Below the pieces are notes generated by a model that saw only the letters and a program-made list of their open reading frames with translations, ran no database searches and was not told the DNA's origin. The position numbers were made by a program, and so were the translations under genes. Positions 3,978 to 53,498 of a stretch of DNA of 64,000 bases are shown one piece after another. Numbering within the stretch: the stretch's first letter is position 1; each line of letters begins with the position of its first letter. The DNA is from Cephalotus follicularis (Eukaryota; Streptophyta; Magnoliopsida; Oxalidales; Cephalotaceae): contig BDDD01000908.1 of the NCBI GenBank assembly GCA_001972305.1, positions 197,758 through 261,757 of the forward strand, given 5' to 3'.

Positions 3978-6269
3978 TATGACAACCTGAATTCCCTTTT
4001 GTACTGTTCATGCATACTTACCATATTGGACAATATCGAATTGTATTGAATTGAGGTATTCCTATACCTATTGTTATTGTATTGGTTAAATGCATGTATA
4101 GTCTAGATTTTGGGCTGAGTTTCAGAGAGTTGGCGGAATCGGCTATATAAGCCAATTCCTTAGCCATTCCTCTCATTTCACTCATTCTCCTCCTCTCTCT
4201 CTCTCCCAGCCGTCAGCCTCCTCCTCTGTAGCAGCTCCGGATTTGCATCTCCAACAGCAAACAACAATTGAAGTCTCACCTTTCCTTGGTTGGAGCAAGA
4301 TTGCAGTGGATTCTTCAAGTTTCCCAACCGATTGATAGATTGGAAGCTCAACTTTTGAAGCTTCGTTAAAGGTAGGACTTCCTACTTGAATTGCCTATTG
4401 CTTAAATGCATGATTGATTGAATTGCAAGATTGATTGAGTGATTGAATGATTGAATTGAAATGAATTGTGAAACTAGGGTTTTCATTGATTTTCCTTGCT
4501 CTAATTGATCTAGGAAGATTGAAACTGAATTTTGAAGGTTGTGATATGTTTTACTAACCTTAAATGATTGATTTTAAACCTAGGTTTTCAAAGAATGGCT
4601 TTAAATTGTATTTTGGCTTGAAAATTGCTGGTTTTCTGCACAAAATCGGCCATTCCCAGCAAAGACATCGATCCCCTTGCCCATGGATATCGATGTCTTT
4701 CGTTTTGGGATGCAACCTCCTTGATTTCTTTGAAAGACATCGACGTCTTTGAAAGACATCGACGTCTTTGAAAGACATCGACGTCTTTGCCTTGAGATGT
4801 CTTTTCCCAGAAAAGGCATCGACGTGGGACATCGATGCGCATTCCCAGGTCATTTTTATTGAAACGTGTCAACGTCTTGGTCCAAGGACATCGACATCGA
4901 CATCTTCGGCCAACTGAGAAAGGCATCGATGTCTTTCAAAGACATCGACGTCCTTCTACCGTTTTCAAAGGCATGCCCTGATACACATTGATGTCTTTTG
5001 CCAAGGACATCGACGCCTTTCGATTTTAGTGGAGTTTTTAACTGTTTAAAGCTGGTTTTCAACTTCTTTTCACATTGCCACTTGATTGGAGCCTCATTTG
5101 AGGTGTTCAAGTGTTTGAAAAGGGTTTTAATCATTGTACTGACTGATTGATCGCTTGAGTCATGAGTGATGTAAGTCTAAGTCGGTAAGTTGGACGCACA
5201 GTCCCAACCCTACATTAAATACCATCACTCATTGACATTACTTATTGACTTTGTAATGATATTGTACTGACATGATTGATTGTATTGTATGGATCCTATA
5301 GAGCGACCTCATGATTTGTGTTGGCATGTTAGGTTGTTGAATCGGTCCACCTATTTAGTCGATCGTTTCATTTACTGTACTGTATGCACCCGCTGATGAG
5401 TGGTACTTATTGATTGTCGATTAATGCTCCCTTGAGACTGTAGGTCCCCAACGGTATCAGTAGCTCCCTCGGTTGTAGCTCATCGAGATTGTATTGACCC
5501 AGCCATAGGCTGGAAGATCTATGAGTCCCAAACCTGATCAATCTGGGGGCCGTAGATAGATCTCCCACCTTTTTTGAAGGACTACCTTCCGTGGGATTGG
5601 TCACTACTAACTGATTGACATTGTATTGACCCGGGGTCGCATGCTCTATAGGATATTGATTGATTGATTGGGTGTTTTATACACCACCATTGAGTGTCTG
5701 CCATTGATTGATTGTTATAGATCCTATCCGTATGCTCTGTTATGGGCCATTGTCATATGGGTAGTCTGATCGCCAATTGTACATATGCATTTGCCATGTC
5801 ATGCATTGATATTGTACACCGCACATTGTTATTCAATAGATTGTCACCGATATTGCACATTGTACATGCATACATGCTGCATGAGGTTTCTGCTTAGCCA
5901 ATGTAGCTAACCCCATCCTTCGGGGTGGGGCTGTGTTGTACCTTTGTTTGCGGCATAGGTAGGGCAGCAGGTAGCTGCGGACTGAAGGATTGAAGATTCC
6001 ATCGACCGAGGGGTTCGTCTGGATCTGACAAAGTTCTTAGTAGTACTGTTTTGAAGAGTTGATAAGTGTATTGTAAAAGATTGGTATTGTAAAGGATTGT
6101 ATTGTATTGTACTGTAAAGTTGGATTCTTGTATTGTATCTTCTGCGTAATGATATGTATTGCAAAGTTTTAAGTTTTTCAGCATTTTTATATTGCTAGTC
6201 CCGACCTATGTATTGTTATTAGATTGAGAGTAATGCCACGTGTCCGCCCAGCGGGCGCGGGGTGTTACA
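3978..6269 (+). repeat. Element A, second LTR (full length), with palindrome cluster
   Basis: About 2.29 kb, the same length as the third LTR, ending ggtgttaca. It has a TATA-type box (4143-4150), a CT-rich tract, a donor-like aaag|gtagg with GT at 4372, then a cluster of short palindromes between about 4660 and 5030 built on acatcgacgt or acatcgatgt. Within that cluster the 19-base word gaaagacatcgacgtcttt is repeated in tandem near 4733-4790. The five bases before it (gtacc) do not match the bases after the third LTR, so it is not the start of an independent nested insertion. Confidence 0.85.
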
Positions 6270-6272
6270 AAA

Positions 6273-6283
6273 TGGTATCAGAG
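6273..6283 (+). other. Primer binding site, element A second copy
   Basis: tggtatcagag four bases after the second LTR. The following bases repeat those after the first primer site, but this copy runs into pol within about 80 bases. Confidence 0.85.
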
Positions 6284-9290: not shown

Positions 9291-12067
9291 TGTAACACCC
9301 CCGGATGGCGGGAGTCGTCACAGGACATAATGCAAAACCTATCAAAGCATAACATGACTTATCTGAGCATAAACATTACTTTATTAACCCAAAACGTGGC
9401 GGTCTTAACATAACAGAAACATTAAAACTTAACACTTAAGCGTTTTCGGAAACATATTAAAACACATTTAAGTTCCCAATTTATAACATAAAAACATAAG
9501 TATCGATGTTTATGACCACTAGACATAACATAGGGATCACACTCCTAGGAATCCAAACACATAGGGTGGTCATCTCTCGTTCACACATTCCCCCGCTGCT
9601 CCTGATAACCTGCCGCATGGAAACAAAAACGCGGCTGAGCAAACCTCAGTACGGATAAGGGAAATAAAACAGTAAACGATAAATTAAAAGCGGTAAGATT
9701 TCAATAAAATTAATAATAGAAATCTTAAGCAATTAAAACAGATAAATAATCGTAAATCACATTTGTACTTCCATAAAATCAATATAACTTTCGAAACAAT
9801 TACGAAACATTTCAAAACATCATTTACGAATCATAGGTCATACTGAGCCATATACATATCACATAACATATATGTGGCAAGGGAGGCGCTAATTCCACAT
9901 GCCCACTAGAATTGAAGTGTACGGCACTACACAAGTCAATTCTCACATATCATATCATATCACACATTGCAAAACTCAACACGTATGCCATATACTAGAA
10001 TCGATTCATACGCCTCTATCATACATAGTGGATCCATAAATTCACCTCATGGGATTTATTCATAACACTCAGAGACGTCGTAGACTAATCACACCGCTAC
10101 GGAAGTGTCACGTCCCCGTGCCAGGCCTAAGACGTGCCTATGGTACGCCCCATAGGTGGGTACAATACTCAGTATTCAGTCATTTCAAAAACATTGATTT
10201 ATCGAAATCAATTTAAAACCACATAAAATATGCTTTCACATAACATATTTGGAAACCACTCACAACGGTATCATAACATACATTTCATAACCAAATCATC
10301 AACTCATTTATACTTCGCTATACAAAGGTGATCATATCGTAACATATCGTATCATTTCATATCATATGCATAAAGTCGAAATCATTTAAAAATGTCAAAC
10401 CAACTTTATTTTCGAAACATGTCAAAACCATAAAACATTATCAATTTCATAAACGAAGAAGCATAGCAAAACTGTTTTCAGTTTGAAATTCAGATAGCCA
10501 AGGAAACGAGAGAAATTCGTACCTTATGCGTTCACAATGCACTTACGGATAGGTGATTTAAAACAAACTCCACTTGAGGCACAACAATCTAAAAGACACC
10601 AAAGTCATACGTATAAGGGTCTAAGACATATCAGAAACATTAAAAAGACTCATTACTGTGTTTGGAAAAGACTCGGATTGATTCGAGGAACAAAAGAAGC
10701 AAAACAGTTGAAAACAGTACATTTCAGGGCAAAACAGTCGACTGTTACAGAGCACCAGCCGACTGGGGAAGCTTGGCAGTCGACTAATCACAAGGGCCAG
10801 TCAACTACTCAAGCCAGAATAAAGACAGTCGACTGGTTCATAGATCCAGTCAACTACACAACCCAAGACAGTCGACTGTGTTCATATGGCAGTCGAATGT
10901 TCATCCAATCCAGCAGACTGTCCACAGGAAAAGCCGACTATTCTGGAAGACAGAAAAGTAGGAAACTAGACGATTTCATGCAGAAAATGGTTCAAATAAG
11001 TACAACACTAAACCAGAGACACATGGACATAATTATACGACCATATATGACATTTAGATGTCATAAAAACACAGAATTGACATAGGAATATCTGGACAGT
11101 GGCTTAACTTTCAAGAGGAAGCAAGAAGACATGCATACATATATGACCAGATTACTGTCCATTATTATATGCAGACTTAACAACTAAATTATGACATGTC
11201 TAAGGTGTATAAAACGTGTTGACAGTCTTACCAATACTATGACCGAACATATTAACATAGGAATTGAAACCAAAGGACAGTAGGAATATAAAACTAACAT
11301 TATAACATTGAAACAAAACCATCACTGTAGGAAACGAATTTAAGTAACCTGTAATGGTATTGGAAACACAGAAAACAGAAGGAGAAACACAACAACACAA
11401 TCACAATTGGTTGCAGAAAGGGACAAAAGGAAACCGAACAAGGAGATACATAATAAGCTTAACAAAACTAGAAGAATACAACCCAAAAGAACAACTAAAG
11501 GACTGAGATTACCTCTTCAAATTTACTGAAGCGACTCCACAAACGATCAAACAAAGTCCACAATGCAAAATCGGAAGTGGCTTTGCATAAAAAGGAGGTA
11601 ACATATAAAATGGTAATACCTCTCACCAAAAGGGAAAAGAGGAGACAAAATCTGACCAAGAAGGAAGAAAGGAGGATTTCAAGGAAGGAGAATGGAAAAC
11701 AAGATTGCAAACGTGTGAATTGATGAGGGGAGGGAGTGAATTCGGGAGAGGAGAGGAAAGAAATAGGAAAGAAGAAGAAAATAGGAAAGGAAGGAAATAA
11801 AAGAAATAAAAGAATAATATAAATTAAGAATTTTAAAATAAAAGGAAGTAATTGTTTTAATAAAATAATTTGGATTATAATAAAATAAATAAAGCCCAAA
11901 CCCAACATTGCATTACATATCAAAATTCGGACTGGCATCAGTCAGCCCAAATCACATAAGCCCAAAACATAGGGCAACCGGACATTTAAAATTAACAAAA
12001 TTAAAAACCCGTAAACAAACACATAAAAAGTCCGTAAAACACATTTACGAACAAGCAGGGTATTACA
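9291..12067 (-). mobile_element. Solo LTR K1 (Ty3/gypsy type), inserted at the tract/LTR junction of element A
   Basis: A single 2.78 kb LTR in reverse orientation: on the minus strand it runs from tgtaataccc to gggggtgttaca. It is flanked by a perfect 5-bp duplication gagaa (9286-9290 and 12068-12072), so it is a solo LTR. Its ends match those of K2 (23792-26232), so the two belong to one LTR superfamily as different subfamilies. Between about 10735 and 10935 lies a cluster of agtcgactg-type palindromes. There is no internal coding region; the frame at 10537-11085 runs across the palindrome cluster and has no known domain. Being inside element A it is younger than A's insertion. Confidence 0.9.
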
Positions 12068-12072
12068 GAGAA

Positions 12073-14365
12073 TGTGATGACCCGAATTCCCTTTTGTACT
12101 GTTCATGAATAATGTATAGTATTGGACAGTATCGAATTGTATTGAATTGAGGTATTCCTATACCTATTGTTATTGAATTGGTTAAATGCATGTATAGTCG
12201 GCATTTTTGGGCTGAGTTTCGGAGAGTTGGAGGAATCGGCTATATAAGCCAATTCCTTAGCCATTCCTCTCACTTCACTCATTCTTCTCCCTCTCTCTAT
12301 ACTTGTCCTCCTCTCTCTCTCTCCCAACCGGCAGCCTCCTCCTCCATAGCAGCTCTGGATTGCATCTCCAACAGCAAACAACAATTGAAGTCTCACCTTT
12401 CCTTGGTTGGAGCAAGATCGCAATGGATTCTTCAAGTTTCCCAACCGATTGATTGATTGGAAGCTCAACTTTTGAAGCTTCGATAAAGGTAGGACTTCCC
12501 TACTTGAATTGCCTATTGCTTAAATGCATGATAGATTGAATTGCATGATTGATTGAGTGATTGAATGATTGAATTGAAATGAATTGTGAAACTAGGGTTT
12601 TCATTAATTTTCCTTGCTATGATGGATCTAGGGAGATTGAAACTGAATTTTGAAGGTTGTAACAAGTTTTTCTAACCTTAAATGATTGATTTTAAACCTT
12701 GGTTTTCAAAGAATGGCTTTAAATTATATTTTGGCTTGAAAATTGCTGGTTTTCTGCACAAAATCGTCCATTCCCAGAAAAGACATCGATCCCATTGCCC
12801 ATGGACATCAATGTCTTTCGCTTTGGGATGTAACCTCCTTAATTTCGCAGCAAAGACAACGATGTCTTTGAAAGACATCTACGTCTTTGCCTTGAGATGT
12901 CTTTTCCCAAAAAAGGCATCGATGCGGGAAATCGATGCGCATTCCCATGCCATTTTTTTATTGAAACGCATTGACGTCTTTGTCCAAGGACATCGATGTC
13001 TTCGGCTAACTGAGAAAGACATCGATGTCTTTCAAAGACATCGAAGTCCTTCTACCATTTTCAAAGGCATGCCCTGATACGCATCGATGTCTTTTTCCAA
13101 GGACATCGATGCCTTTATGGCTGAGTGGAGTTTTTAACTGTTTAAATCTGGTTTTCAACTTCTTTTCACATTGCCACTTGACTGGAGCCTCACTTGAGGT
13201 GTTCAAGTGTTTGAAAACGGTTTTAATGATTGGACTGACCGATTGATTGCTTGAGTCATGAGTGATGTGAGTCTAAGTCGGTAAGTTGGACGCACATTCC
13301 CAACCCTCCATTAGATACCGTCACTCATTAGCTTTGCTTATTGACATTGTAATGATATTGTACTGACATAATTGGTTGTATTGAATGGATCCTATAGAGC
13401 GACTTTATGATTCGTGTCGACATGTTAGGTTGTTGACTCTATCCACCAATTTCGCCGATCGTTTCATTTACTGTACTGTATTGACCAGCTGACGAGCGGT
13501 ACCAACTGATTGTTGATTGATGCTCCCTTGAGGTCGTAGCTCCCTAATAGTATCAGTAGCTCCATAGGTTGTAGCTCATCGAGACTGTATTGACCCAGCC
13601 ATAGGCTGGAAGATCTATGAGTCCTAGACCTGATCAATCTGAGAACCGTAGATAGATCTCCCACCTTTTTTGTAGGACTTCCTTTCGTGGGGTTGATCAC
13701 TTCTAACTGATTGACATTGTATTGACCCGGGGTCGCATGCTCTATAGGATATTGATTGATTGATTGGGTATTTTATACACCACCATTGAGTGTCTGCCAT
13801 TGATTGATTGTTATAGATCCTATCCGTTTGCTCTATTATGGGCCATTGTCATACGGGTAGTCTCATCGCCAACTGTAAATATGCATTTTCCATGTCATGC
13901 ATTGATATTGCACACCGCACATTGTTATTGCATAGATTATCACCGATATTGCACATTGTACATGCATACATGCTGCATGAGGTTTCTGATTAGCCAGTGT
14001 GGCTAACCCCATCTTTCGGGGTTGGGCTGTGTTGTACCTTTGTGCGCGACATAGGTAGAGCAGCGGGTAGCAACGGACCAAAGGATTGAAGACTCTATCG
14101 ACCGAGGGGATCGTTTGGATCTGACAGAGCTCATTGTAATACTGTACTAAAGAGTTGATAAGTGTATTGTAAAAGATTGGTATTGTAAAGGATTGTATTG
14201 TGTTGTACTGTAAGGATGGATTGTTGTATTGTATCATCCGCTTAATGATATGAATTGCAAAGTTTTAAGTTTCTCCGTATTTTTATACTGCTAGTCCAGA
14301 CCATTGTATTGTTATTGGATTGAGAGTAATGCCACGTGTCCGCCCTGCGAGCGCGGAGATTTACA
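12073..14365 (+). repeat. Element A, third (3') LTR
   Basis: Full-length LTR, tgtgatgacccg to gagatttaca, followed by target duplication ggttc (14366-14370). It shows the same order as the second LTR: TATA-type box near 12241, CT-rich tract, donor-like aaag|gtagg (GT at 12489) and an acatcgatgt-type palindrome cluster (about 12775-13120) with fewer tandem copies than the second LTR. Confidence 0.88.
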
Positions 14366-23791: not shown

Positions 23792-26232
23792 TGTAATAAC
23801 CCGTTTCTATGCTTACATAATTATCATTTTATGTTGCGTTTATACCTTTTGATATATGCTATGGTGTGTGAACTCTTTGATTTTATTTTATTTAATGTTT
23901 GTTTTCTGGGCACAAAGCGCCGACGCTCTTATTAGAACCGCCGACGCTTTGGGTGTTGTGAGATACGTTGATGCCAAAACGTGTGACTTTGACGCATTTC
24001 GTAACTTAAGGCTTAACCGTCAACGCTTTTCGTAAGCTGTCGACGCTTTAGTCGGCTTTCCTATTCTTTTTGGACGGTGACATGCTTATGGAAAAGGAGG
24101 TTTTTTTGCCATTTTTATTGATCCGATTTTCCTTCTTTGAGTAAGACCGAATATGCACAAAAAGAAACTTATTAGTTACACGATTTCATCATAAATTTCA
24201 CTCGATTTATTGGATTTATAAACTGATTTCAACAATTCTTTGAGAACCATCTACATATTTCTTACAAATCGACACAACAACTTTGTTGGCCTCAATCTTC
24301 ATCAAAACGACGTTTTCTGAAGGTATTTTCTAAACGAAAGTTGTAGTTTGTACTACGTAGTTTCAATATCACCCTTTGATTTGTATTAAAACCGACTAGA
24401 ATTTAATTTTGAGCATGATTTTAGAGGCATGTTGAAACTAATTTTCTGATGTTCTTAATTTGTTAATATATGTAATTTATGTGCATATTTTGTTATACTG
24501 GAATTCTAATCAAATAAGTTATGCTATAGCTACATATATGTTACTGTTTTATAGTCTGGGCAACAAAAATCGGATTATAGCTCCTGATTTGTACAAACTA
24601 TTTTAAATATCAGAAAATTTCAATTCAAAATGTGTTTTATACTTTACATGAAATCATAGGTTTATTCTGGCATTTTTTTGAACTGATATAACATGTCACA
24701 GAACCTACATGTTGTTAATTATCCATCGTGTTTATAAAAAATTAGATTTGACCATGGATTTGAAACTAGTTTCTGCAACTGGTATTCTGCGTTCGACGCA
24801 AACCGTCGACGCTTGTATTTTAAGCGTCGTCGCTTTGTACTGTGTTATGCTGCGTTTAGTCGACGCTTTGCTCTGCGCTTTGTCCTTCTATGCAATGAAA
24901 CCGTCGAAGCCTAAGGATAAACTATCGACGCTTTCTCAGGCAGTTTTGATGTTTTGTTTCTTTTTATGTTATGTGATGTTGGGTTTATATATTTAGGTCT
25001 TAATATCGTCAGTGGTGGAGTTTAGTACACTTCTAGGGTGCTTTTGTTCGGTATTCTTGTTGTTTAGATTTTTTGACCTGCTAAGGTACGGATTCTTCGA
25101 TTCTTTGATATTCCCTCGATTAAATTAAATAAAGTCAATTTTTACTGTTTGATGACTATGTACTTGATATAATCTTATTGAAATGGATTTATTATTGATT
25201 TTTAATATGCATATTTTTTGCTATCGAAAATGTGTTATTTGTTTTGGACATGACTTCCACTTTAGGAAGTATGTTAAACTTCAGATACGAATCAAATTAT
25301 GATTTCAGATATAAAAGTATGTTTATGACATGGAAGTATATTTTAAATTGTTTTAGAATAAAACAATGTTTTAGCATAATAACATACAGAGAAAAACCCT
25401 ACCTATGAGGTATCATAGGCATGTTCTTTGGCACGAAGGGCATGACACCTACCGTGGCGGTATGATTGGTCCACGACGTCTCTTTTAAATATGTATCCTG
25501 AGGGTAGGATATGGATCCTTTTGAGGCGTATGAGTATATTCTAGTTATTGTCAGAATTCAGTATTCAGTATTGGGATTGTTTGTGTAGTGCCGTACACGA
25601 CTTTTCCGTCAGAGCATGTGGGCCTCGCGAACCCCTTGCACCTTTATATGTATGTATGTTAGAATTCTCTGTTATGGAATTATGAAATCAGATAAAGTTT
25701 TGAACTATGATGTTATGTTTTTCGTAAAGTTATGATGATTTATAACTATTCGTATTTAAATATTCTACTTTACATTTTAAAGAATATTTACTATGTTAAT
25801 TTGATGAGTTTTGAAGTTCAAATTAAATGTTTACTGTTTACTGTTTTACTTCCTTATCCGTACTGAGGTTTGCTCAGCCGCGTTTTTGTTTCTAAGCGGC
25901 AGGTTTTCAGAAGGATGGGGGAAACGTGTGATGAGAGTTACCCACTTGTCAGAGGATCAGCTAGGAGTTGGTCCATTGTGTTTTCAGTAGTGTTGATCAT
26001 ATTTTGAGTTAATATCAGACTAGTTTCTTCTTAAACAGTTTTTGGATATCGGATTATGCTTTGTTTTTATTTATGAATGGTTGAAATTTCAGACTCTATT
26101 TTATATCAGTTTGTTATAAGTTATGTTTTCAGACCACCACATCCGTTTTGTGTAAAATTCATGCTTAGATATTCTGTCATATTTTGTTTGGTATTATGAC
26201 CTGTAAGGGCTCCCACCATCGGGGGTGTTACA
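23792..26232 (+). mobile_element. Solo LTR K2 (Ty3/gypsy type) inside element B
   Basis: 2.44 kb from tgtaataacccg to gggggtgttaca with a perfect duplication ttcag (23787-23791 and 26233-26237). It shares both ends with K1 but differs in body. It carries two clusters of cgtcgacgct-type palindromes, about 23915-24055 and 24785-24935, separated by some 750 bases of AT-rich sequence. No internal domain, so a solo LTR. It is younger than B. Confidence 0.92.
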
Positions 26233-27125: not shown

Positions 27126-28231
27126 GATTTGATGCATATATGCAGTTAGAATCTTGTTGTTAATGACATGCTTGAATTGTTTGGGTTAAACAGTGAAACG
27201 AAAGAATGAGATGTAAACAGCAGAATTCCCTGTTGATGTCTAACTGTCGACGGTTCTGATCAAACCTTCGACAGTTAGACGTATCGCCCACAATAAAACA
27301 TGCATGGAAGCATTAAGTGCTAACGGTTTAGAGTAAACTATCGATGCTTAACCATTAAGGTCTGACGTTTCGATAAAACTGTCGATGCTTAAGGCATCAC
27401 ATGAACCTCTGTACTACAGCACTGATGGTTTAGAGTAAACCATCGATACTAAAGCATTAAGCACTGTCGTTTTGAGAAAACTGTCGACGCTTAAGACTTC
27501 TCTTTGACCCTCTGTACTAAAGCGCGGAAGATTACGCAAAGCGTTAACTGAAGCATCGACGCTTAACGTATAACTGTCTACGCTAAAGACAAAGCGTCGA
27601 CTGTTTAAAAGCAAATCTGAAAAAGAGTTTTTCTTAAATTACCCAAATTAATTGTTTATATTTATAAAAGCATATCTATCAAGATTATTAGGTAATTCAA
27701 TGAGATTGAAATTATATTTTTTGCATGATGGTAGGGTTATGGACTTGACCTAGTTTTGGCTTATTTAATTCAATAGTTGAATTATGTTTTATGTTCATAA
27801 TTTTCAAGTTGTAATGACTTTGAGACTTGCATGTCTCTCTTCTTTCTCTTGTTTTGTATCTATAATTACTCTTAACCTCCTTGTAACTCCCCTTGATTTA
27901 ATTCAAGGTTTCTCTAGTTTATAGTTGGTTTATGTAATTGAAACTGTGACTGTCGTAGCAGAAGCAAGTTTCAGAATAGCAAAGATATTACAAGACCCAT
28001 ACATGTATGGGAGTTAATGTATGATTGTAATAACATACCTAGGAATGAAACTAGCAGCTTATTTGAGAGTCAAACAAGTTACAGTAGTAAAGGCCATTAT
28101 CTGTCATTAGTTTTAATATGTATGTGATGCATGTCTAAACTATGTACCAGAGGTTCCAACGGCCTCTCCATAATATGCCATCTACCTGTAATTTGATTAA
28201 TGATGGGTTGGGTAATAATATATATATATAT
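27126..28231 (+). other. Element C untranslated leader, first part, with palindrome cluster
   Basis: AT-rich, without a supported coding region. Bases 27236-27610 hold a cluster of ctgtcgacg and gcatcgacgct-type words, matching in kind the clusters in the gypsy LTRs. It ends in a TA microsatellite where LTR G' is inserted. Confidence 0.6.
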
Positions 28232-34639: not shown

Positions 34640-35689
34640 TCCTCCATAAAACACACTCCTCGCACCTTCACCTTCTTCTACCTGCGCTGAAGGAGAAAGG
34701 GAAGAAATCATGAGAAATAGGAGATAAAAGGGAGAAGGAGAGATCGTTTCTCCATTGTTGGACCTGGAAGCTTGGAGGCTCAAACCAAGAGTGGAGCCGA
34801 GCTTGAACTTGGAGCTACTACACCGAACCTGGGAGCTTGAAAGCTACTGGTCGGTAAAGCTTGAAGGGGTGGACTTCAATTCCTAACTTGGAATTAGAGG
34901 TAGGGATCACATAACTGTATTTTTTAGTTTAGTTATAATAAGAGTTGTTTGATGAAAGCATGAAGGGTGGCTTGTAGTTTGTGGTTTGTCTTGAATGATA
35001 ACCTGTTATGTTGTTTGGGTGTTTATGGATTAAGTATTGCATGTGTTGTTTGCTTAGGTCCATTGTTTTGGGACACGGTTGCAAACCGAAACGGTAGAGA
35101 CGCTGTTATGGTCTCACAGACGTCGACGCCATGGGTGCGCGTTGACGCCATGGCCTGTTATATGAGAAAAGGGACGCACGAAGCGTTGGCGCCTAAGGTT
35201 CCTTACCTTAAGGCATCGATGCCAAAAGAACACGTTAATGCCTACCAGACACGATGCGCTATTAACATTGACGCCTATGGGTTGTGTTGACGCCTAGAGC
35301 AAATGTTGGCGCCTAACTGGGTTGCATGCATGTCGACGCCTAGAGAGGACGTTGACGCCTAAAGGATTGCTTTGTACATTGACGCCTAGAGCGAGTGTTG
35401 GCGCCTCAGTGGGCTACCATGCAAGTCGACGCCTAGGATAGACATTGACTCTTAAGATAACTGCTTACACATTGACGCATATGGGGTATAAGTTGATGCC
35501 AAAAGAGACTGATTTCGTTTTGGAGCACAGGATGCCTACACGTTGATGCCTAGAGTTAGGTGTTGACGCCAAAAGGGTCTGTCTACATTTTGAGCATATG
35601 GTTGCTTGCATATGGCTATGAATTGTTGCATATTTGAGTAAATATGTATGGCAAGTATTTTACAGAATTTCAGAGATGGAATCCATTCA

Positions 35690-37176: not shown

Positions 37177-38245
37177 TGTGATAACCGCAATTTCAATCCG
37201 TGTATATTGTACCCTTGATGAATAAAATATGCACTTACTTGAATTTTAATGTTCAATTGTTATATGGATTGTGGTTGTGAATTTGTTTGAGGGAATAAAC
37301 TTGAGCAACCAAAATCAGGCAAAACAGCCGACTGTCATAGGGTAACAGTCGACTGCCTGGTTTATGGAGGAACAGTAGACTGTCACAGGGGAAAAGTCGA
37401 CTGTTTAAATTTATGGAGGAACAGCCGACTGTCACAGGGGAACAGTCGACTGTTTCATGCATGAGTGGACAGTCGACTGCCGGTTAAAGACAGTCGACTG
37501 GAACGACATAGAACAGGTGTCTGTGCAAGCGTGAAACAGAGCAGGGACAGTGATGACAGGTGTCTAATCGTGGCAGGCATGAGGGATGCGTGTCATCAGC
37601 TGCCATAACATGCAAGAGGAATGCCTTGCATGTCCTCTATCCCTCCTGCAACCTACAAACAGAAGATGGGAAAGAGAGAAAGTGAATGTAAGCAATGAAC
37701 ATGTGAGAGAGAGAAAAGAGAAGGCTAAGTTTATGGAATCTGGCGAATTCTAAGTCTCGTAAGCCTTTATATCAGCTATTAGAATAGAGAGTGAGTGTCG
37801 GAAACACTTAAGAGAGAAGGAAAACACACTGGACAGTGGCTGTTGGCAAGTGGATGCATGTTGAAGGCTTAGAGTGCAAAGGAGGACTTGAAGCTTGGAG
37901 TTCCTGGTAAGCTCCGAGTTATGTTAGTATTAAAGTTATAGTTAAACAGTATCACATTCGTCCTATAAACCTACTGATTAAACATGATCATCAGTAATAA
38001 GATGAAAATTGGAGATTGAACTTAGTCTAGTTAGGAAATGGAAAATGGAACTAGGAATTTGATTGTAAGCTCCTAGTTCCGATTTTGTTGTTATCATGAC
38101 TAGATAACTAGATGAACGTACTGGTACTGATATCTAAATCTGTAAACATGCAACCATATAGATTAATTACTGGATTTGGAGAATTGAGTTGAGTGAAGGA
38201 CTTGGAACTCAAGGAGAGGAATCAACCCAATTTGATTCCGGAGAA
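37177..38245 (+). repeat. Cluster I LTR, first (start portion)
   Basis: Corresponds to about the first 1.07 kb of the full LTR at 38716. It carries a cluster of cagtcgactg palindromes (37318-37500), a TATA-type word (ctttatatcagc near 37765) and a leader-like stretch with cttggagttcctg. It then joins a short repeat of the pol end. Confidence 0.82.
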
Positions 38246-38715: not shown

Positions 38716-41286
38716 TGTGATAACCGCAATTTCAATCCGTGTATATTGTAAACTTGATGAATAAAATATGCACTTACTTGAATTTTAATGTTCAATTGTT
38801 ATATGGATTGTGGTTATGAATTTGTTTGAGGGAATAAACTTGAGCAACCAAAATCAGGCAAAACAGCCGACTGTCACAGGGTAACAGTCGACTGCCAGGT
38901 TTATGGAGGAACAGACGACTGTCACAGGGGAGCAGTCGACTGTTTGATGCGTGAGTGGACAGTCGACTACCTGTTAAAGACAGTCGACTAGAACGGCACA
39001 GAACAGGTGTCTATGCATGCGTGAAATAGAGCAGGGACAGTGATGACAGGTGCCTAATCGTGGCAGGCATGAGGGATGCGTGTCACCAGCTGCCATAACA
39101 AGCAAGAGGAATGCCTTGCATGTTCTCTATCCCTCCTGCAACCTGCAAACAGAAGATGGGAAAGAGAGAAAGTGAATGTTAGCAATAAACATGTGAAAGA
39201 GAGAAAAGAGAAGGATGAGTTAATGGAATCTGGCGAATTCTAAGGCTCCTAAGACTTTATATCAGCTATTAGAATAGCTTGTGAATGTCGAAAACACTTG
39301 AGAGAGAAGGAAAACACACTGGATAATGGCTGTTGGCAAGTGGATACAAGTTGAAGGCTTATAGTGCAAAGGAGGACTTGAAGCTTGGAGTTCCTGGTAA
39401 GCTCCGAGTTCTGTTAGTATTAAAGTTATAGTTAAACAGTATCACATTCGTCCTATAAACCTACTGATTAAGCATGATCATCAGTAATAAGCTGAAAATT
39501 AGAGATTGAACTTAGTCAAGTTAGGAAATGCAAAATGGAACTAGGAATTTGATTGTAAGCTCCTGGTTCCGATTTTGTTTTTATCATGACTAGATAACTA
39601 GATGAACATACTGGTACTGATATCTAAATCTGTAAACATGCAACCATATAGATTAATTACTCGATCTGGAGAATTGAGTTGAGTGAAGGACTTGGAACTC
39701 AAGGAGAGGAATCAATCCAATTTGATTCCGGGATAGCAATTGAGGTAGGGGTAACGACATGTTTTTGGAAGATATATTATGCATATCATGTATGGTTAAT
39801 TTTCTGTTTGATTGCATGTGTTGTTTAAGTTAGTATTTGGACATTGAAATGCATACCCTGTTACTACCTGCTCTTTTCTGGGCAAAGCAATCGACTCTTC
39901 TTCATGGCAGTCGACTACTCAAACGAACCAGTCGACTGTTAAGAACAAACAATCGACTACTCAATCCAAACAGCCAACTGTTCTTGAGAGCAGTCGACTG
40001 TCTTGGGATAAAATTCTGATATAAGGTTCTGTCAGGCCTTAAATTGAATGTAAATAACCTGGCCTCCATATGTGATGACTGTAACAGTCAATCTTGGCCT
40101 AATCCAATTACATTTCAAAATTTAAACAATGTATCTACTCATTGTGAGAATTTTTAAAGAATGACTATGGTACACAATAACCTTATGGAACCCTTGGATT
40201 ACTACTGTGCTTACTGTTTTGCTGTATATGCTACTGTTATAATTAGTATATACTGTTTTGGTGTTCATTAACACTACTGTCCCTTATTTCCAAATGATTG
40301 AACCTACTAGTGCTTTAAGCACAAATATGAGTTCCTTACGGTTTTCAAAATGGAAATGTATATTGTCAAATGATTACTGTTTTCCCCTCCAATGAGAGGT
40401 ACTGTTACTGTACTGAATATCGTTTCCCTCCTACGAGATGTACGATTACTAAATTGATAAATGTTTCAAAGAAACAACCTTATATTACATACTATAAACT
40501 TATGTAATATTACTATTGAATTGACTGAATTAATTGTCTATGTTATTGCCATTAGTCGAGTGATAGGAGACGTCACTGGCTACGGAGGTGGTCCTATGTG
40601 CCAGGAGTTGGCTAGAGTACCCACCCAAACTATCTGCAATGCAAATCTTGATTGTTAAACTACCCGCTAATGCCGGTAGTAACTGACCTGATCTATCATC
40701 TTCGGAGTGAAGGGTGATAGATAGGTGGTGCACAGTTGGTGCTAGGAGTTAGCGACATGTGACACCCAAACCACGGATTGATTGATTGTACCCTTATGCG
40801 GTATTCTTGAATTGTATTGTCTATGGCCACTTGGCATGGTTGCTTATATATTGGAATACATAATTATGTTATTTTCAATATAAAATGTCATACATGTTGC
40901 ATTTATATATTCCTTATCATGCATTATCTTCCTACTTAGCCAAGTGAGGACAACAGCTAGCCCCTACAATTTCAGATTAAGTCAAGGCATTCGGGAAGGC
41001 GCGCTGCTGAAGCTTGGAGAGCTTCTATCCTGTTTAAGGTTGTTATTCTTATGATGTACTGTAATTGTAATGAACGATTCGCACTCCGTTGTTGTTTACT
41101 TTCCTTATGTAAAAGGATAATTGTTGGATTGTACGAGCACGTACTATGGGCTGCGTGCAGATCACTTTGATTTATAATCTAGATATTAATGCTTCCGCTT
41201 ATTTATGAAATGCTGGATTATTTACTTATTCCTGATATCACTACATGTCATCTAAATGTAATGGAATAGGAAGGTGGGGTGTGACA
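38716..41286 (+). repeat. Cluster I LTR, full length
   Basis: tgtgataaccgc to ggggtgtgaca, 2.57 kb. It has two palindrome clusters of cagtcgactg type (38868-38995 and 39888-40003), with between them a CT/AG-rich leader-like section and a donor-like gag|gtagggg (GT at 39745). The primer site follows. Confidence 0.88.
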
Positions 41287-41289
41287 GCG

Positions 41290-41985: not shown

Positions 41986-42073
41986 ATATTCCATATATGC
42001 TAGCTGGGATAAGTTTCTCGGAAATTAAGTGAAATTGTTTCCTAATGATTATGTCATTCCATATAGGAAACTG

Positions 42074-44929: not shown

Positions 44930-46576
44930 AACATGCAACCATATAGATTAATTACTGGATTTGGAGAATTGAGTTGAGTGAAGGACTTGGAACTCAAGGA
45001 GAGGAATCAACCCAATTTGATTCCGGGATAGCAATTGAGGTAGGGGTAATGACATGTTTTTGGAAGATATATTATGCATATCATGCATGGTTAATTTTCT
45101 GTTTGGTTACATGTGTTGTTTAAGTTAGTATTTGGACATTGAAATGCATACCCTACTACTGCCTGCTCTTTTCTGGGCAAAGCAGTCGACTGTTCTTCAT
45201 GGCAGTCAACTACTCAAACGAACCAGTCGACTGTTAAAAACAAACAGTCGACTACTCAATCCAAACAGCCGACTGTTCTTGAGAGCAGTCGAATGTCCTG
45301 GGATAAAATTCTGATATAAGGTTCTGTCAGGCCTTAAATTGATTGTAATTAACCTGGCCTCCATACGTGATGACTGTAACAGTCAATCTTGGCCTAATCC
45401 AATTACATTTCAGAATTTAAACAATGTATCTACTCCTTGTGAGAATTTTTCAAGAAGGACTATGGTACATAATAACCTTATGGAACCCTTGGATTGCTAC
45501 TGTGCTTACTGTTTTGCTGTATATGCTACTGTTATAATTAGCATATACTGTTTTGGTGTTCATTAACACTACTGTCCCTTATTTCCAAATGATTGAACCT
45601 ACTAGTACTTTAAGCACAAATATGAGTTCCTTACGGTTTTCAAAATGGAAATGTATATTGTCAAATGATTACTGTTTTCCCCTCCAATGAGAGGTACAGT
45701 TACTGTACTGAATATCGTTTCCCTCCTACGAGATGTACGATTACTGAATTGATAAATGTTTCAAAGAAACAACCTTATATTACATACTATAAACTTATGT
45801 AATATTACTATTGAATTGACTGAATTAATTGTCTATGTTATTGCCATTAGTCGAGTGATAGGAGACATCACTGGCTACAGAGGTGGTCCTATGTGCCAGG
45901 AGTTGGCTAGAGTACCCACCCAAACTATCTGCAATGCAAATCTTGATTGTTAAACTACCCGCTAATACCGGTAGTAACTAACCTGATCTATCATCTTCGG
46001 AGTGAAGAGTGATAGATAGGTGGTGCACAGTTGGTGCTAGGTGTTAGCGACATGTGACACCCAAACCACTGGATTGATTGATTGTACCCTTGTGCGGTAT
46101 TCTTGAATTGTATTGTCTATGGCCACTTGGCATGGTTGCTTATATATTGGAATACTTAATTATGTTATTTTCAATATAAAATGTCATACATGTTGCATTT
46201 ATATATTCCTTATCATGCATTATCTTCCTACTTAGCCAAGTGAGGACAACGGCTAACCCCTACAATTTCAGATTAAATGAAGGCATTTGGGAAGGCGCGC
46301 TGCTGAAGCTTGGAGAGCTTCTATCCTGTTTAAGGTTGTTATTCTTATGATGTACTGTAATTGTAATGAACGATTCGCACTCCGTTGTTGTTTACTTTCC
46401 TCATGTAAAAGGATAATTGTTGGATTGTACGAGCACGTACTATGGGCTACGTGCGGATGACTTTGATTTATAATTTAGATATGAATGCTTCCGCTTATTT
46501 ATGAAATGCTAAATGAAATGCTGGATTATTTACTTATTCCTGATATCACTACATGTTTTCTAAATGTAATGGAATA
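44930..46576 (+). repeat. Cluster I LTR interior fragment
   Basis: Matches the full LTR from its leader-like section (acatgcaaccatatagatt) to within about 25 bases of its end. It includes the donor-like gag|gtagggg (GT at 45040) and the second palindrome cluster (45178-45300). It then meets the end portion of LTR H at 46577. Confidence 0.82.
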
Positions 46577-48360: not shown

Positions 48361-50305
48361 ATTCAATTGGCAAAGGTATGCCTTACTTGTCTTATATAGA
48401 GGTGAATATGTATATTCCTTATTCATCTACCTGGATTTTAGACAGTGGATGTGGTACTCACATATGTTCTAATTTGCAGGCCCTCACAGACAAAAGAAAC
48501 CTTGAGAAGGGTGAGGGAGATCTACGGCTTGCGAATGGCTCGGTTGTTGAAGCCATGGTTGTAGAATCAGTTTATATTATGTTGCCTTCGGGCCAGAGCT
48601 TTGTACTCAAACAATGCATTTATTCATCTCACATTTTGCGTAATATCATTTCTATTACGGCACTAGATGCCGAATGTTTTCAATTTATTTTTAAGGACAA
48701 GTGTTGTACCGTTTTAATGAATGATGTGATATATGCAAAATGTTTTCTTTATGATGGATTATATGTATTGAATAAACATGAGATTGTTTTCAATATGCAA
48801 AAAAAAAAAGAGAGAGATGAAAGTAATCAATCTTACCTATGGCACTGTAGACTGGGTCATAATTGTGAGAAAAGAGTGCGTCGGTTGATCTCGGATGGAA
48901 ACTTAAATTTTTTGGAGTATTAACCATTTCCAAGTTGTGAACCCTGTCTCAAAGGAAAAATGACTAAATCTCCCTTCACAGGGAAAGGGGAAAGGTCCCC
49001 AAAACTGCTAGGTCTAATGCACACTGATGTGTGTGGACCAATGACAATGGATGCCAGAGGTGGATATTCCTACTTCATAACCTTTACCGATGATCATTCA
49101 CGGTTCAGTTATTTATACCTAAAGTGATACAAATCTGAAGCCTTTGATAAATTTAAAGAATTCAGACAAGAAGTAGAAAAACATACTGGAAAAAGTCTAA
49201 AAACTCTTCGATCAGATGAGGTGGTGAGTATCTCTCCACTGAGTTTTTAACTTATGTCAGAGATAATGGGATTATCTCTCAGTGGACGTCTCTTGGAACA
49301 ACATAGAATAATGGTGTTTATGAAAGGAGAAAACGCACCTTGCTTGACATGGTGCGGAGCATGATGAGTGAAGCTCAACTTCCACTGTCTTTCTGGGGTT
49401 ATGCCTTGGAGACTGTTGTTCTCATATTAAACAAGACTCCAACAAAATCTGCTCCCAAGACTCCATATGAAATTTGGAACGGGAAGAAACCCAATCTTAG
49501 TTATTTGAGAATATGGGGTTGCCCTACAGATGTCAAGCAGGAAGCAGCAGATAAATTGGACTCTAGGTCCATAAAATGTAAACTTGTGGGATATCCTAAA
49601 GAAATAAGAGGATATTATTTCTATTACCCACCTGACAACAAAGTGTTTATGGCCAGGCAAGCTACCTTTCTTGAGAAGTACTTCCTATTGGAAGACAGTA
49701 GTGGGATTATGATAGAGCTGGATAAGCAATCTACAACACCACGAGTTGAGGACCTATCCACTCCTGTTCAAATTGATAAGCCTGAAACATCAGCAACCAC
49801 AGACACACAACCTCTGCATAGAACTACCCGAATACCTAGGGAAACTGAGAGATACTATGGTAGTTTTCTCATTGAAGGAACCCAAGAGGTAAACCTCATG
49901 AACGATGATCCGGTTAGCTACAAATAGGCCATATCAGATATGGACTCGGAGATGTGGCTTAAAACCATGAATTCTGAAATGGAATCCATATACTCCAACC
50001 AAGTTTGGAATCTAGTGGATGCACCCGAATGAGTTAAACCCTTGGGTTGCAAATGGATTTTCAAAAGAAATCTTGGAGATGATGGGAAGGTGAAGACCTT
50101 CAAAGCTAGGCTCGTAGCCAAAGGCTAAAATCAACGGGAAGGGATTGATTATGAGGAAACTTTCTACCCTATAGCCATGCTTAAATCCATTCAGATTTTA
50201 CTTGCTATAGCTCAACATCTTGAAAATGAAATATGGAAAATGGATGTGAAAACTGCCTTCCTTAATGGAAACATTGATGAAGACATATATATGACCCAAC
50301 CTGAC
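48361..50305 (+). pseudogene. Element C protease, integrase and start of reverse transcriptase
   Basis: Protease with WILDSGCGTHIC (about 48430). The GAG-pre-integrase domain reads LWHCRLGHNCEKRVRRLI near 48840. The integrase core starts at MHTDVCGPMTMDARGGYSYF near 49017 and continues with [25 protein letters not shown] and [21 protein letters not shown]. After a low-complexity linker, reverse transcriptase begins with WLKTMNSEMESI and GCKWIFKRN, then MDVKTAFLNGN (about 50240) and ends at MTQPD against LTR J. Integrase ahead of reverse transcriptase defines Ty1/copia. Many breaks. Confidence 0.85.
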
Positions 50306-51814
50306 GTATTATACATCGACGCCTAAGGTTCCAACCTTAACGCGTCGACGTCTTAAGCAATACGTTGACGTTTAAGGTTCCACATCTTGAGCGTCGATGC
50401 GTATAAGTTGGACATTGACGTCTTCAAAGAGTGGAAAGCGTTGTCGCTAGGCACTTTAGAGTCGACTTTACGGGACAAAGACATCGACGCCTAATAATAG
50501 ACATCGACGCCTTCCTGTACTGTTTGGAAGTTTTCTTACTTCATGATACGAAACAATCCCAATTTCGATTAGGATGAATTAGAGCATTTGTATGCATTGC
50601 ATATGTACTATTTACTGCCTGTATGATAATCGTTTATGAACTGCTATGCTTTCTAAAATTGTTATATTGATTTAGAAATGCACACATGAGTTTGAAAACT
50701 ACTATGTTTGTGTACGAAATATAAAATGAGTACTGTTATATTTTCGAACCAACTGGGAAAGCGATTTCCACTACTGAATTGTTTAAAGTATTTTCTATCT
50801 ATTAGAATTACATATTTCAAATGTTATCACTTTCAAAAATAATTTGAAATAAACTGCCTGTTGTTGATCTAACGATCATTACTGTACAGTTACTGCACTG
50901 TTTACTATGACTATTCACTGTTCGCTCTGTGAATTTCATGTGTTTGTGCTTAAGCCACTAGTTGCATGGCGGAGGCTGCCAGCGTTGGCTAGTGGTAGGG
51001 TTGACCTAGGAGCCATGAGTTGGGTGGGTAACTCACTGTACTGTACCATTGTCTTGCTTGGTTTCCTGGAGAAGGGACCGAAGTGGGAGTGTAACGTGGG
51101 GCCAGGAGTTGGCGGCGTTGCACATACTTCCTGCCTATTTGTTAGTCCCTTTGTGGACTTACTGTACTGCCTGCTAGTCCTTCTCAGACATTACTGTGCC
51201 TATTGATGTAGCCCTGGCCGGGTTACTACTGTATTGTATTGCATACACATATTTTTCATATATATTCCCTTACTATTATTTTACTGTACTGCTAAGTTAT
51301 ATATTTTTTTCATATAGATATATATACTGGTATTTTCTACTGCACTGCATCATCTACGCATACATTTCATAACATGCATGTAATGTTAATCCCAAACTAC
51401 TGTTATGACTTAGCCGAGTGAGGACAAAGGCTAACCCCCTACTTTACAGATTAATGCAGTGGACCGGCTTGGGAATCAGCATGGACGAAGTAAAAGTTTT
51501 AATAATGTTTTACTCAGGGTTACGTCCCTTTGAGTATTGTGTACTGTATCTTTTCCAGTTACTAGACTTATGATGTTATTGGATAATGTATTATGAATCA
51601 CGCTCCGTTTATGGGCTTTTAACAATGACAGACTTGTTTTGAGTAACGTGCAGTATGGGATGCACGTTACGTGTTTTCAGCTTATGAGTTTAATGTTTCC
51701 GCAACTGATATTTTATTTGAAAAGTTTAAATTTTATGGTATTTACATAACCTGAATCTTAATGATATTTGCCTTTACCACTTTATGTGTGTCTACCTGAA
51801 ACCGGGGCGTGACA
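50306..51814 (+). mobile_element. LTR J, plus-oriented end half, inserted in copia pol
   Basis: Begins inside a palindrome cluster (cgtcgacgtct words, 50320-50510) and runs to an LTR end (ggggcgtgaca, 51814). It matches the last 350 bases of LTR H (for instance tatgggatgc, gtgacgt-type and cttccgc words). It lacks an LTR start. It abuts a minus-oriented half of the same family. Confidence 0.72.
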
Positions 51815-53498
51815 ATGTCCTCTAAGCGTCAACTCTCAACACTTAGCGTCAGCACTTACCAGTAGTCTTTAGTCATCAACGTTTAACTCATACGCATCGA
51901 TGCTCAAGGTATGGAACCCTTTACTCCAGGCGTCAACGCTTTCAAGGTAGGAACCTTAAGCGTCGACGTGTAACGCATCTGTATCCATACAATCGAACCA
52001 AGGCATCGACGCTTTCCTCTAGCATCGATGTTTAACACGTCGTCAGTACCAGTTCTACGTATCTCAGTACAAAGCCTCGACGCTTATAACGTGAGCGTCG
52101 ACGGTTTCGTAACCCAGACCATCGTCTTCCTTGGTTTATTGCAAAACCAGCAATTATAGTAAAACATACATGTAATTCCAGTCCAATTATCCATTTAGGG
52201 AACACATGCATGATCAGTTTGCATATCACAGTAACCATAACAACCATCCAGCAATCTCAATCCATCCATATCAACATGCAATCATGCATACTAGCCCAGA
52301 ATTGCTGTCTCTTTCGTCCAATAAAATCAGTAAGATTCAAGCTCAATAATCATGCAAATCAGTTTGATGTACATCCATAATCGACATGCAATAACAGATT
52401 ACATATCCAGCTCATCAAAGCATCAATCCCGTAACCAAAATCAGTCCAAAACAGTCATGGAAAATCATGCATATCACCCATGAACAAACATCAATTTTGA
52501 ACTCGAATTTACAAGAATAATTCCCCTACCTTTAATTCCAAGTTAGGAACTAAATGTCCACCTCTTTGAGTTTCAAAACCGGTCACAGCAGCTCAAAATC
52601 TGTGTACACTCCAAGCTCCAAGCTTGGTCCAACGACGGTGATCAACAATGGAGGAAGAGAATGACTTCATGTCTCTCCTTTTTCTGGTCTTTCAGTGCCT
52701 CTCTCTAGTGTTTCTAACATCATCGCCATCACTTAGCAACTGATATATATATGGACAATCGTACTAGTGATTCCTTAATATAACTCAGATGGTTGGCATC
52801 TTTCTTCTTTCTCTCTCTATTTTCCTCTAGTTTATTTGTCTATTTCTCTCTTGTTTTTCCCTCTCTTCTGAAACTCCGTGATAGAGATGGAGAGTGAACT
52901 CTTCTACCCAGGTTGCATCTTTGTCTCCATATGCATGTAAAGAAGGTTCCATCCCTTCATAACACCTGGTTGCATGGTGCACCAGGTATCATCCTCTTGC
53001 TTAAATGGCTATTGCATGCACACACATGTCCTCTCTTTCCTTCACTATCTGTCCTGGTAAGTCAGGGTAGCCTAATGCATGCACAACACATCTTAAATTG
53101 CATGTTAAGGCGCATGAAAAGTGATCTCATCTTGCCCCCTGCACCACGTTTCCATCAACATCGTAACATGCCTGGTATACGACTCAAAGCGTCGATGCTT
53201 ACCTTTAAGTGTCAGCGCTTCAGTGCTTAGTTCTATTGGCGTCGACGCTTATCCATTGCATCGACGTTTAAGCATTCAAGTAAAATGTGTGTTTCAGTTT
53301 GACAAGGCGTCGACGCTTTGGCTTATGGCATCGACGCTTAAGCCCAAATTTCCCAACACTTAAATTCAAAGTAACCTTTCAATATTGTTTATGCCAAAGA
53401 CAACATTATCAAATAGGTAACCCACCATTTCTCATTAATTCGTGACATTTCACCATGAGGGTTACAATTATATATCAAGTAAAATCCCGGGTGTTACA
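51815..53498 (-). mobile_element. LTR J, minus-oriented start half
   Basis: On the minus strand it starts tgtaacacccggg at 53498 and runs left through a first palindrome cluster (53185-53345), a CT/AG-rich section with a TATA-type run (52743-52752), gcttggagcttgg, a donor-like aaag|gtagggg (minus-strand GT at 52529-52528) and a second palindrome cluster (52115-51830). It ends there, at the LTR end of the other half. Copia pol resumes at 53499. Confidence 0.72.

Follow-up and report, generated by a model that had tools for sequence, protein, structure and literature searches.

Why should LTRs and leaders of several kinds of retrotransposon, assembled in one stretch of plant DNA, carry clusters of short palindromes built on a common core? 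The window considered here, i.e. the whole stretch that was analysed, comprises 64,000 nt of Cephalotus follicularis (GCA_001972305.1, contig BDDD01000908.1, 197,758-261,757, forward strand). An earlier note had described within it clusters of TCGA-core palindromes with family-specific flanks in unrelated element types, from which it argued for a function rather than shared descent. The sites were found where that note had located them (Table 1), and the clusters are real: GTCGAC amounts to 10.5/kb inside the 14 array stretches, which total 3,236 bp, versus 0.08/kb outside, and 34 of the 39 GTCGAC and 16 of the 29 ATCGAT words of the window fall within them, whereas 300 dinucleotide shuffles of these stretches gave at most 6 and 5, respectively. 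ATCGAT was rejected as a motif of its own and is regarded as a variant of GTCGAC within the same arrays.

Table 1. Palindrome arrays in the window, with site type and surroundings.
Array	Position	Strand	Site type	Surroundings
A, first LTR	4660..5030	+	GAC[A/G]TCGA[C/T]GTC	gypsy LTR A (LTR ~3977-6269)
A, second LTR	12775..13120	+	same class as first	LTR ~12073-14365
K1	10735..10935	+	CAGTCGACTG	LTR-like start 9291; homologous locus L008_2611
K2, first	23915..24055	+	mostly decayed (one TCGA)	LTR-like start ~23796
K2, second	24785..24935	+	ACCGTCGACGCTT type
Copia leader	27236..27610	+		3' of PBS TGGTATCAGAGC (27113)
H	35098..35560	.	GCGTCGACGC type, largely decayed or variant (GTTGACGCC, GTTGGCGCC)
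I, array 1	37318..37500	+	CAGTCGACTG	LTR start TGTGATAACC ~37177
I, array 1, second copy	38868..38995	+		LTR 38716 to ~41287, PBS 41290
I, array 2	39888..40003	+	same class as array 1	~1 kb from array 1, same LTR
I, array 2	45178..45300	+		5'-truncated LTR copy
J, first cluster	50320..50510	+	GCGTCGACGC type	LTR-like insertion splitting copia pol; homology to L018
J, second cluster	51830..52115	.
J, third cluster	53185..53345	.

Elements A and I are of the gypsy type, with Retrotrans_gag/Ty3_capsid and SH3_Tf2-1 integrase matches and a chromodomain only below the cut-off. The PBS-like TGGTATCAGAGG lies at 6273, just 3' of the first A LTR, and nine RTCGAY words occur in the I LTR of the window. 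The copia leader array, which includes a 102-bp tandem repeat, is together with that of L021 one of two arrays situated 3' of a PBS. The sense strand of the first J cluster was set by homology to L018 (71-78%).

Comparison was extended to 20 evenly chosen 10-kb stretches elsewhere in the genome (L005-L024; 200 kb including 3,433 N) and to word counts over the entire 1.58-Gb plant genome, with the reversed word as control. In the sampled stretches, flanks that are symmetric to 8 bp are most frequent around TCGA (120 of 682, 17.6%), compared with 4.2-9.7% for 13 other palindromic cores, 11.8% for ATAT and 11.6% for TATA. Genome-wide, CAGTCGACTG occurs 197,377 times (control 939) and GCGTCGACGC 73,186 times (control 121). 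The core is mostly TCGA, with flanks CAG/CTG or CG/CG, but the supposition of one shared TCGA core does not extend to all sites: CAGCCGACTG is found 177,392 times, and one group features CGTYRACG, centred on TA, CA, TG or CG. Likewise, array A is present but largely composed of the imperfect GACATCGACGTC, which is not a true palindrome, and the H array, although of the expected type, has for the most part decayed or diverged. In viral contigs, the CAG-pair pattern had no match, and the GTCGACGC-pair pattern matched at least 120 stretches, which is taken as chance.

The two sides of a site vary together. Among 139 GTCGAC sites of the window and the sample, the outer pairs are TG/TG in 38 cases and GC/GC in 10, versus 0 for TG/GC and 2 for GC/TG. 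Across the genome, the heterotypic hybrids CAGTCGACGC are rare (6,335 and 6,380; controls 174 and 185), whereas free combination of half-sites would give about 240,000 by arithmetic from the genome counts. Moreover, in family A the ratio of shared to singleton changes is lower in sites than in spacers (16/85 vs 71/176, p = 0.014), also when CpG is set aside (3/51 vs 63/165, p = 0.0003); family I points in the same direction without reaching significance (4/23 vs 46/107, p = 0.16).

In addition, neighbouring sites tend to keep a fixed distance. Half of the adjacent gaps of 12-60 bp (76 of 152) measure 19-22 bp and contain 70 distinct spacers, and the 10.2-bp periodicity reaches a power of 66, the highest value among 500 null jitters being 7.9. 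Exact CAGTCGACTG pairs occur genome-wide 38,192 times at 19-22 bp versus 236 times at 23-26 bp, in copies that are not independent, as tandem duplication and transposition spread both spacing and flanks. Two observations count against phased arrays: a spacing of 27-30 bp, which is not two helical turns, is also frequent (7,867), and of six control cores ACGT likewise has 6 out of its 24 gaps in the 19-22 bp class.

With regard to descent, the element types are only in part unrelated: the I and J LTRs are loosely homologous to one LTR group, while A, K1 and the copia leader stand outside it. Homologous LTRs may nevertheless differ in flank class (CAG vs CG), as exemplified by the I LTR (CAG class) and the L020 LTR (ACCGTCGACGCTT class), which are 67% identical over 2.5 kb and bear their arrays at matching places. 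Two arrays located about 1 kb apart within one LTR, on the other hand, agree in class. In nine two-array LTRs of the window and the 20 sampled stretches, with array limits set by hand and both L022 arrays assumed to belong to one LTR, half-site similarity was 0.62 within and 0.40 between LTRs (exact permutation p = 0.0001; p = 0.00004 with array order corrected), and 0.57 versus 0.48 (p = 0.008) when the three CAG LTRs were omitted. A 12-LTR version, biased by seven LTRs (L185, L188-L192, L194) from pattern-picked stretches, was not relied on.

An account devoid of any element function would assume turnover of tandem units of about 21 bp that retrotransposition disperses and that pass from one element to another. 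Indeed, unit number differs among members of a single family, an outcome expected of tandem duplication, units of 19-22 bp recur, and the spacer TCACAGGGG is common to the gypsy I array and the copia L196 array (blastn-short E 0.045), a weak hint of exchange. However, such turnover leaves unexplained the symmetric covariation, the core shared by LTRs for which no homology was detected and the deficit of shared changes within family A sites, and the diversity of the spacers also speaks against it; we consider it quite improbable. Function rather than chance is supported by flank covariation, the 19-22 bp spacing with varied spacers, agreement within LTRs and fewer shared changes in the sites of family A. 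The exclusion of shared descent, on the contrary, does not hold in full, in view of the varying unit number, several homologous LTR families and the spacer shared by gypsy and copia elements.

On balance, the clusters are probably cis-regulatory arrays read as double-stranded DNA, offering sites to a two-fold symmetric protein with an activating or anti-silencing effect. A site would span about 10-18 bp of near-palindromic sequence centred on T[C/T][G/A]A or CCGA, in most cases TCGA, and be contacted by such a protein, and the prevailing distance of 19-22 bp, close to two helical turns, would align several proteins on one face of the helix. The arrays are situated in LTRs, 3' of the PBS in some leaders, and ahead of an internal gene (PF20167). 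The bound protein would activate transcription or prevent silencing of the element; candidate binders would be a host CBF/DREB-type AP2 factor, recognising RYCGAC, or the PF20167 protein acting like VANC. The position of TATA-like words counts against a cis-regulatory array, since only 5 of 21 LTR arrays, checked in sense orientation, have one within 150 bp past the last site (L195 at 46 bp, K2 at 57 bp, where TATATATT lies at 24986 behind the second array, L013a at 76, L020 at 95 and L010 at 105 bp). The placement of the copia leader and L021 arrays 3' of the PBS likewise counts against it.

Of the three functions offered before, namely a protein-binding array, an RNA hairpin and a recombination signal, the first, putative as it is, fits best, and nothing in these comparisons pointed to a recombination signal. 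In the genomic RNA, hairpins or kissing palindromes might serve packaging or dimerisation or trigger small RNAs, and full genomic RNA would contain the LTR, leader and internal arrays alike. In keeping with this, the accessible part of PMC10760457, citing Bousios 2016, mentions a small-RNA excess over Sirevirus palindrome clusters, and minimum free energies lie well below dinucleotide shuffles in nine arrays out of ten, with z from -3.7 to -12.4, and weakly below them in H (-1.4). These values, which palindrome clusters would be expected to give, were not taken as evidence of RNA function. Scanning the window for tRNAs or, at gathering thresholds, with Rfam gave no match. What weakens the hairpin is the nature of the asymmetric inner pairs, which on the sense strand are mostly A.C and not G.U (A 78:1, L021 9:0, L018 8:0, J 3:1; exceptions L013b 4:4 and L022 2:4). 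Furthermore, the non-wobble form is also the commoner one at CTA/TAG ends (10 v 3), and RNA pairing needs no spacing rule. Hairpins are less likely than double-stranded DNA sites and, taken by themselves, unlikely.

If the arrays are indeed DNA sites for a protein, the polarity of the non-palindromic sites bears on its identity. Taken along the sense strand, these sites mostly conform to RYCGAC (I 41:1, A 92:4, L195 LTRs 14:0, L196 LTRs 17:0), and over 29 sets 19 lean to sense, six to antisense and four tie, the antisense sets having small numbers (2 v 3, 0 v 2, 2 v 3, 3 v 4, 0 v 1, 0 v 2) and the sets not being independent (L021, L010_5919 and L023_5215 are one family). Such a lean speaks for a host stress-type AP2/ERF factor (CBF/DREB), for which RYCGAC would be the functional unit and palindromes like GTCGAC would display it on both strands. 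The consulted portion of PMC5892871 lists RYCGAC as CBFHV, a CBF/AP2 binding motif, and PLACE applied to the Sirevirus repeats yielded mainly stress-factor sites according to the accessible part of Bousios 2010 (PMC2829016). A host AP2 factor is possible though doubtful, for a single AP2 site accounts neither for symmetric covariation several bases past the core nor for CGTTAACG-type arrays, quite apart from the six antisense sets.

The other candidate is encoded by the elements themselves. PF20167 ('Transposase_32') is abundant, with 13,073 first-look candidates, of which 150 were scored and all 150 matched. As read from the sequence, the protein comprises a basic N-terminus, the Transposase_32 domain, an acidic stretch and a coil-like C-terminus. 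An array lies upstream of all seven PF20167 genes not chosen by arrays, six of which (L197-L202) were picked from the 150 by score and open frame and one (L023) by similarity. In L197-L202, 37 CGTYRACG sites occur in 6 x 620 bp upstream, as against none in the remaining 6 x 581 bp, and a TATA[AT]A word follows the sites by 15-45 bp in all six promoters. Besides, two elements found through their arrays, L195 and L196, have an array (3194-3372 and 1514-1567, respectively) before the PF20167 ORF; the copia gag PF14223 in L195 and a AAAAAGGGGGAGATTG tract before the LTR in both point to Sirevirus-like copia elements. Each of three protein groups is accompanied by a motif class of its own: CAG in L195/L196, CGTCTT/CTTCTT half-sites in L023, the protein of which is 21% identical to P0001, and CGTYRACG in L197-L202.

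A PF20167 protein that binds, in the manner of VANC, both the LTR arrays and the array before its own gene, with protein and motif drifting together, is a tentative candidate that we would not expect to prevail. Three groups make the covariation anecdotal, the more so as the six L197-L202 genes are related (63-92% identity), and a host factor acting on both promoters would be just as likely to leave an array ahead of the gene. Among the examined loci and the window, no PF20167 gene was tied to an array-bearing gypsy element: P0001 or the L195 pieces matched only L195, L196 and L023, and no PF20167 ORF was found in the window. A search of the PF20167 profile against the PDB returned no match.

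Should the arrays be regulatory DNA sites as favoured here, a large, little-described plant transposon gene family would be linked to a readable DNA target, a motif type that had been regarded, among copia elements, as peculiar to Sireviruses would extend to Ty3/gypsy, and the way in which retrotransposons of different superfamilies become activated or escape silencing would be open to direct test. Even with a host binder, the regular spacing and the way in which motif classes change in concert would impose strong, testable constraints. A wider cross-superfamily system seems rather unlikely, in which PF20167 proteins encoded by some retrotransposons are sequence-specific activators or anti-silencers recognising phased palindrome arrays with co-changing specificity, and gypsy elements without the gene use their arrays in trans; if it existed, the sites of a single genome, in their hundreds of thousands, would amount to a few competing control 'languages'.

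Several known systems invite comparison. The LTR of HTLV-1 contains repeats of about 21 bp with a palindromic core upstream of the promoter, which are used by a host factor and a viral activator, and thus offers an analogy in unit length, palindromic core and LTR position. Another is provided by VANDALs, DNA transposons with anti-silencing motifs for which binding of the VANC protein to the motif YAGTATTAY was demonstrated (Hosaka 2017, accessible part of PMC5735166): motif arrays differ between closely related elements there, just as homologous LTRs here carry CAG or CG classes, whereas PF20167 is a candidate binder by position alone. In the open-access literature, no work on GTCGAC palindromes in retrotransposon LTRs was found, and none on such arrays in Ty3/gypsy LTRs among the titles and abstract openings of the matches listed, those for AGTCGACT included.

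The closest resemblance is to Sireviruses. According to the accessible part of Bousios 2010 (PMC2829016), palindromic repeated motifs (RM) occur in multiple copies in the Sirevirus LTR upstream of the TATA box and again upstream of ENV, differ in sequence between elements, show, with the exception of Tnd-1, a CGG-CCG signature, and are Sirevirus-specific, classic (Ty1/copia) retrotransposons having none; the centre is TCGA in two of the 13 RMs that are listed there (Vitis CGGTCGACCG and Tnd-1 ACAATCGATTGT). The layout of L195 and L196, with arrays in the LTR and before a gene in ENV position, matches closely, as does the presence of at least eight palindromic copies per element (11 CAGTCGACTG and 11 CAGCCGACTG in the fetched L195 stretch, 7 and 17 in that of L196). 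In contrast to that account, arrays here also reside in Ty3/gypsy LTRs (A, I), and the core is T[C/T][G/A]A or CCGA without the CGG-CCG signature; a spacing rule or strand polarity is not mentioned for RM in that part of the paper. As far as this source goes, palindromic arrays in Sirevirus LTRs and before ENV were already known; new here are their occurrence in the LTRs of Ty3/gypsy elements, the change of class around a common core, the regular spacing and the strand polarity.

The palindromic sites listed for 14 stretches of the window in the earlier note, together with their coordinates, proved real in the sequence, and their proposed enrichment held: 34 of the 39 GTCGAC copies and 16 of the 29 ATCGAT copies in the window lie inside these stretches, while 300 shuffles of the stretches themselves yielded at most 6 and 5, respectively. 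Genome-wide counts (1.58 Gb, 9,746 contigs; window = C908:197758-261757), compared with reversed-word controls, amounted to 28,876 copies of ACAGTCGACTGT (control 65), 197,377 of CAGTCGACTG (939), 73,186 of GCGTCGACGC (121) and 88,572 + 88,820 of CAGCCGACTG (708 + 622). Among all palindromic cores, TCGA featured the highest flank symmetry in 20 evenly chosen 10-kb stretches of the same genome. A cluster rule returned 36 clusters, 11 in the window and 25 in this 200-kb sample, a count that misses the array groups K2 and H, both below its threshold, and includes at least one sample cluster, L013_2511, that is not array-like in appearance. All counts refer to one genome with mutually related element copies, the gypsy elements of which we take to be of a Tekay/Del-like lineage.

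The flanks of the core co-vary, a check that the earlier note had proposed: at 898 TCGA sites from window and sample, mirror-base matches exceed the expectation from the margins at positions 1-7 from the core (0.434 versus 0.268 at position 2), with no excess at position 8 (0.255 versus 0.250). At 139 GTCGAC sites, the outer dinucleotides were TG/TG in 38, GC/GT in 15, TG/TA in 13 and GC/GC in 10 cases, and the mixed forms TG/GC and GC/TG in 0 and 2. Likewise, the hybrid CAGTCGACGC (6,335 + 6,380 copies genome-wide) is, by arithmetic from the genome counts, about 19-fold rarer than freely combined half-sites of both flank classes, CAG and CG, predict. The CAG-class LTR of family I is alignable over 2.5 kb (67%) with the LTR of sample locus L020, the arrays of which are placed as in I and mostly ACCGTCGACGCTT-like; CAG-class L009 matches CG-class J and L018 at 73-79% over 0.36-0.67 kb. 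In nine two-array LTRs from window and sample, half-site similarity of paired arrays was 0.622 within the same LTR versus 0.402 between different LTRs (exact permutation p = 0.0001; p = 0.00004 with array order strand-corrected, several orientations being taken from homology; p = 0.0008 without L022 and K2), and in the six CG-class LTRs only, 0.574 versus 0.478 (p = 0.008). Families A and K1, the copia leader and L023_7920 stand outside the large LTR homology group, a grouping based on +/-900 bp in which chaining via neighbouring insertions is possible.

Spacing is constrained as well. Gaps of 19-22 bp make up 76 of the 152 adjacent gaps of 12-60 bp and comprise 70 distinct spacers, while gaps of 18 or 23 bp are absent; for control cores, the 19-22 bp fraction was 1/35 (TGCA), 4/34 (CATG), 0/19 (GATC), 9/104 (AATT), 2/25 (AGCT) and 6/24 (ACGT). 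Exact CAGTCGACTG pairs number 38,192 genome-wide at 19-22 bp and 236 at 23-26 bp; 7,867 further pairs at 27-30 bp constitute a real exception to the two-turn rule. Moreover, across the 22 copies analysed for family A, changes present in three or more of them are depleted in sites relative to singletons (shared/singleton 16/85 versus 71/176 in spacers, p = 0.014; non-CpG changes 3/51 versus 63/165, p = 0.0003), and 22 copies of family I tend in the same direction without significance (4/23 versus 46/107, p = 0.16); each set comprised 20 of 40 scored places plus two window copies.

Imperfect sites are strand-biased, the sense strand mostly carrying ATCGAC or GCCGAC, i.e. RYCGAC, a sequence that PMC5892871 gives under the name CBFHV as a binding site for CBF/AP2. 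Sense:antisense ratios were 41:1 in I, 92:4 in A, 14:0 and 17:0 in the LTRs of L195 and L196, two copia loci fetched through their arrays, and 9:0 in L018, and in three arrays related to one another 10:0 (L021), 7:1 (L010_5919) and 10:1 (L023_5215). Over 29 sets, J left out, 19 leaned towards sense, 6 towards antisense (each at most 4) and 4 tied, and in four oriented sets CAGCCGACTG outnumbered CAGTCGGCTG by 61:1. Although the arrays fold well, selection for a sense RNA hairpin, among the functions suggested earlier, is disfavoured, because sense-strand mismatches in most sets are A.C rather than G.U (J, 3:1). The arrays fit putative double-stranded DNA binding sites for a symmetric factor. 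Candidates for this factor are a host CBF/AP2 protein and the element-encoded PF20167 (Transposase_32) protein.

With regard to the latter, L195 and L196 carry CAG arrays in their LTRs and a second array upstream of a PF20167 ORF (E-values 7.7e-17 in L196, 2.6e-06 and 7.4e-10 for pieces in L195). In sample locus L023, a distant homolog found by similarity (21% identity) lies downstream of an array of another class. Six further PF20167 loci (L197-L202) were chosen from 150 scored by score and open frame, ignoring arrays; all six hold 4-7 CGTYRACG sites upstream of the gene in the first 620 bp (37 in total), with none in the remaining 581 bp of these stretches and a background of 0.21/kb in the sample, and each locus also has a TATA[AT]A word 15-45 bp past such sites. 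Being 63-92% identical, they are not six independent cases. At positions 250-620, their array centre is often TTAA or TCAA, not TCGA (CGTTAACG, CGTCAACG); a TA centre occurs at 0 of 41 CGTYRACG sites in the sample. As to LTR arrays, a TATA-like word within 150 bp past the last site accompanies 5 of 21 sense-oriented ones (L195, K2 array 2, L013a, L020 array 2, L010 array 2) and is absent there from 16, including both I arrays, both A arrays and the L196 LTR; hence, a position immediately upstream of a promoter applies to some arrays only.

Coordinates of copia loci fetched through arrays and of other repeat features
Feature	Location	Description
L195	C1:4300-10100	Sirevirus-like copia; copia gag PF14223; AAAAAGGGGGAGATTG tract preceding TGTTGG LTR
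L196	C1:157600-161600	Sirevirus-like copia; AAAAAGGGGGAGATTG tract preceding TGTTGG LTR
L021 array	L021:5440-5994	17 TCGA sites between PBS (5243) and long copia-like frame (by reading)
Complex tandem repeat	window 15600-16100, 21240-21860	two long copies built on GCCAGACCAC, in ~3.2-kb segments 85% identical (14827-17990, 20462-23789)
Tandem duplication	window 7099-7529	208 bp (94%), RT region of gypsy pol
I LTRs and pol ends	window 36703-42167	head to tail (36703-38277, 38242-39773)
Duplicated segment	window 41480-42167	duplicates 40808-41483, PBS included (97%)
LTR-like DNA with J arrays	window 49927-53442	splits copia pol; pol-like frame resumes at ~53.4 kb (by reading; no Pfam match at that place)

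The head-to-tail repeats of I LTRs and pol ends, along with the 97% repeat that includes the PBS, suggest from their arrangement that recombination between elements may have occurred there.

Among known systems, VANC sets a precedent for a plant transposon-encoded protein for tandem motifs differing among relatives (PMC5735166). In sunflower, PF20167 similarity was reported for an extra ORF of Athila, and Tekay elements with a different, nuclear extra ORF were described; the passages of that study available to us tie neither ORF to LTR motifs (PMC11728184). For the repeated motifs of Sireviruses, a regulatory role was suspected by Bousios et al., who find them both within the LTR and upstream of ENV but describe them as absent from classic retrotransposons (PMC2829016). 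In contrast to those motifs, the present arrays also reside in Ty3/gypsy LTRs and feature a common core, which extends palindromic motif arrays from Sirevirus to Ty3/gypsy LTRs.
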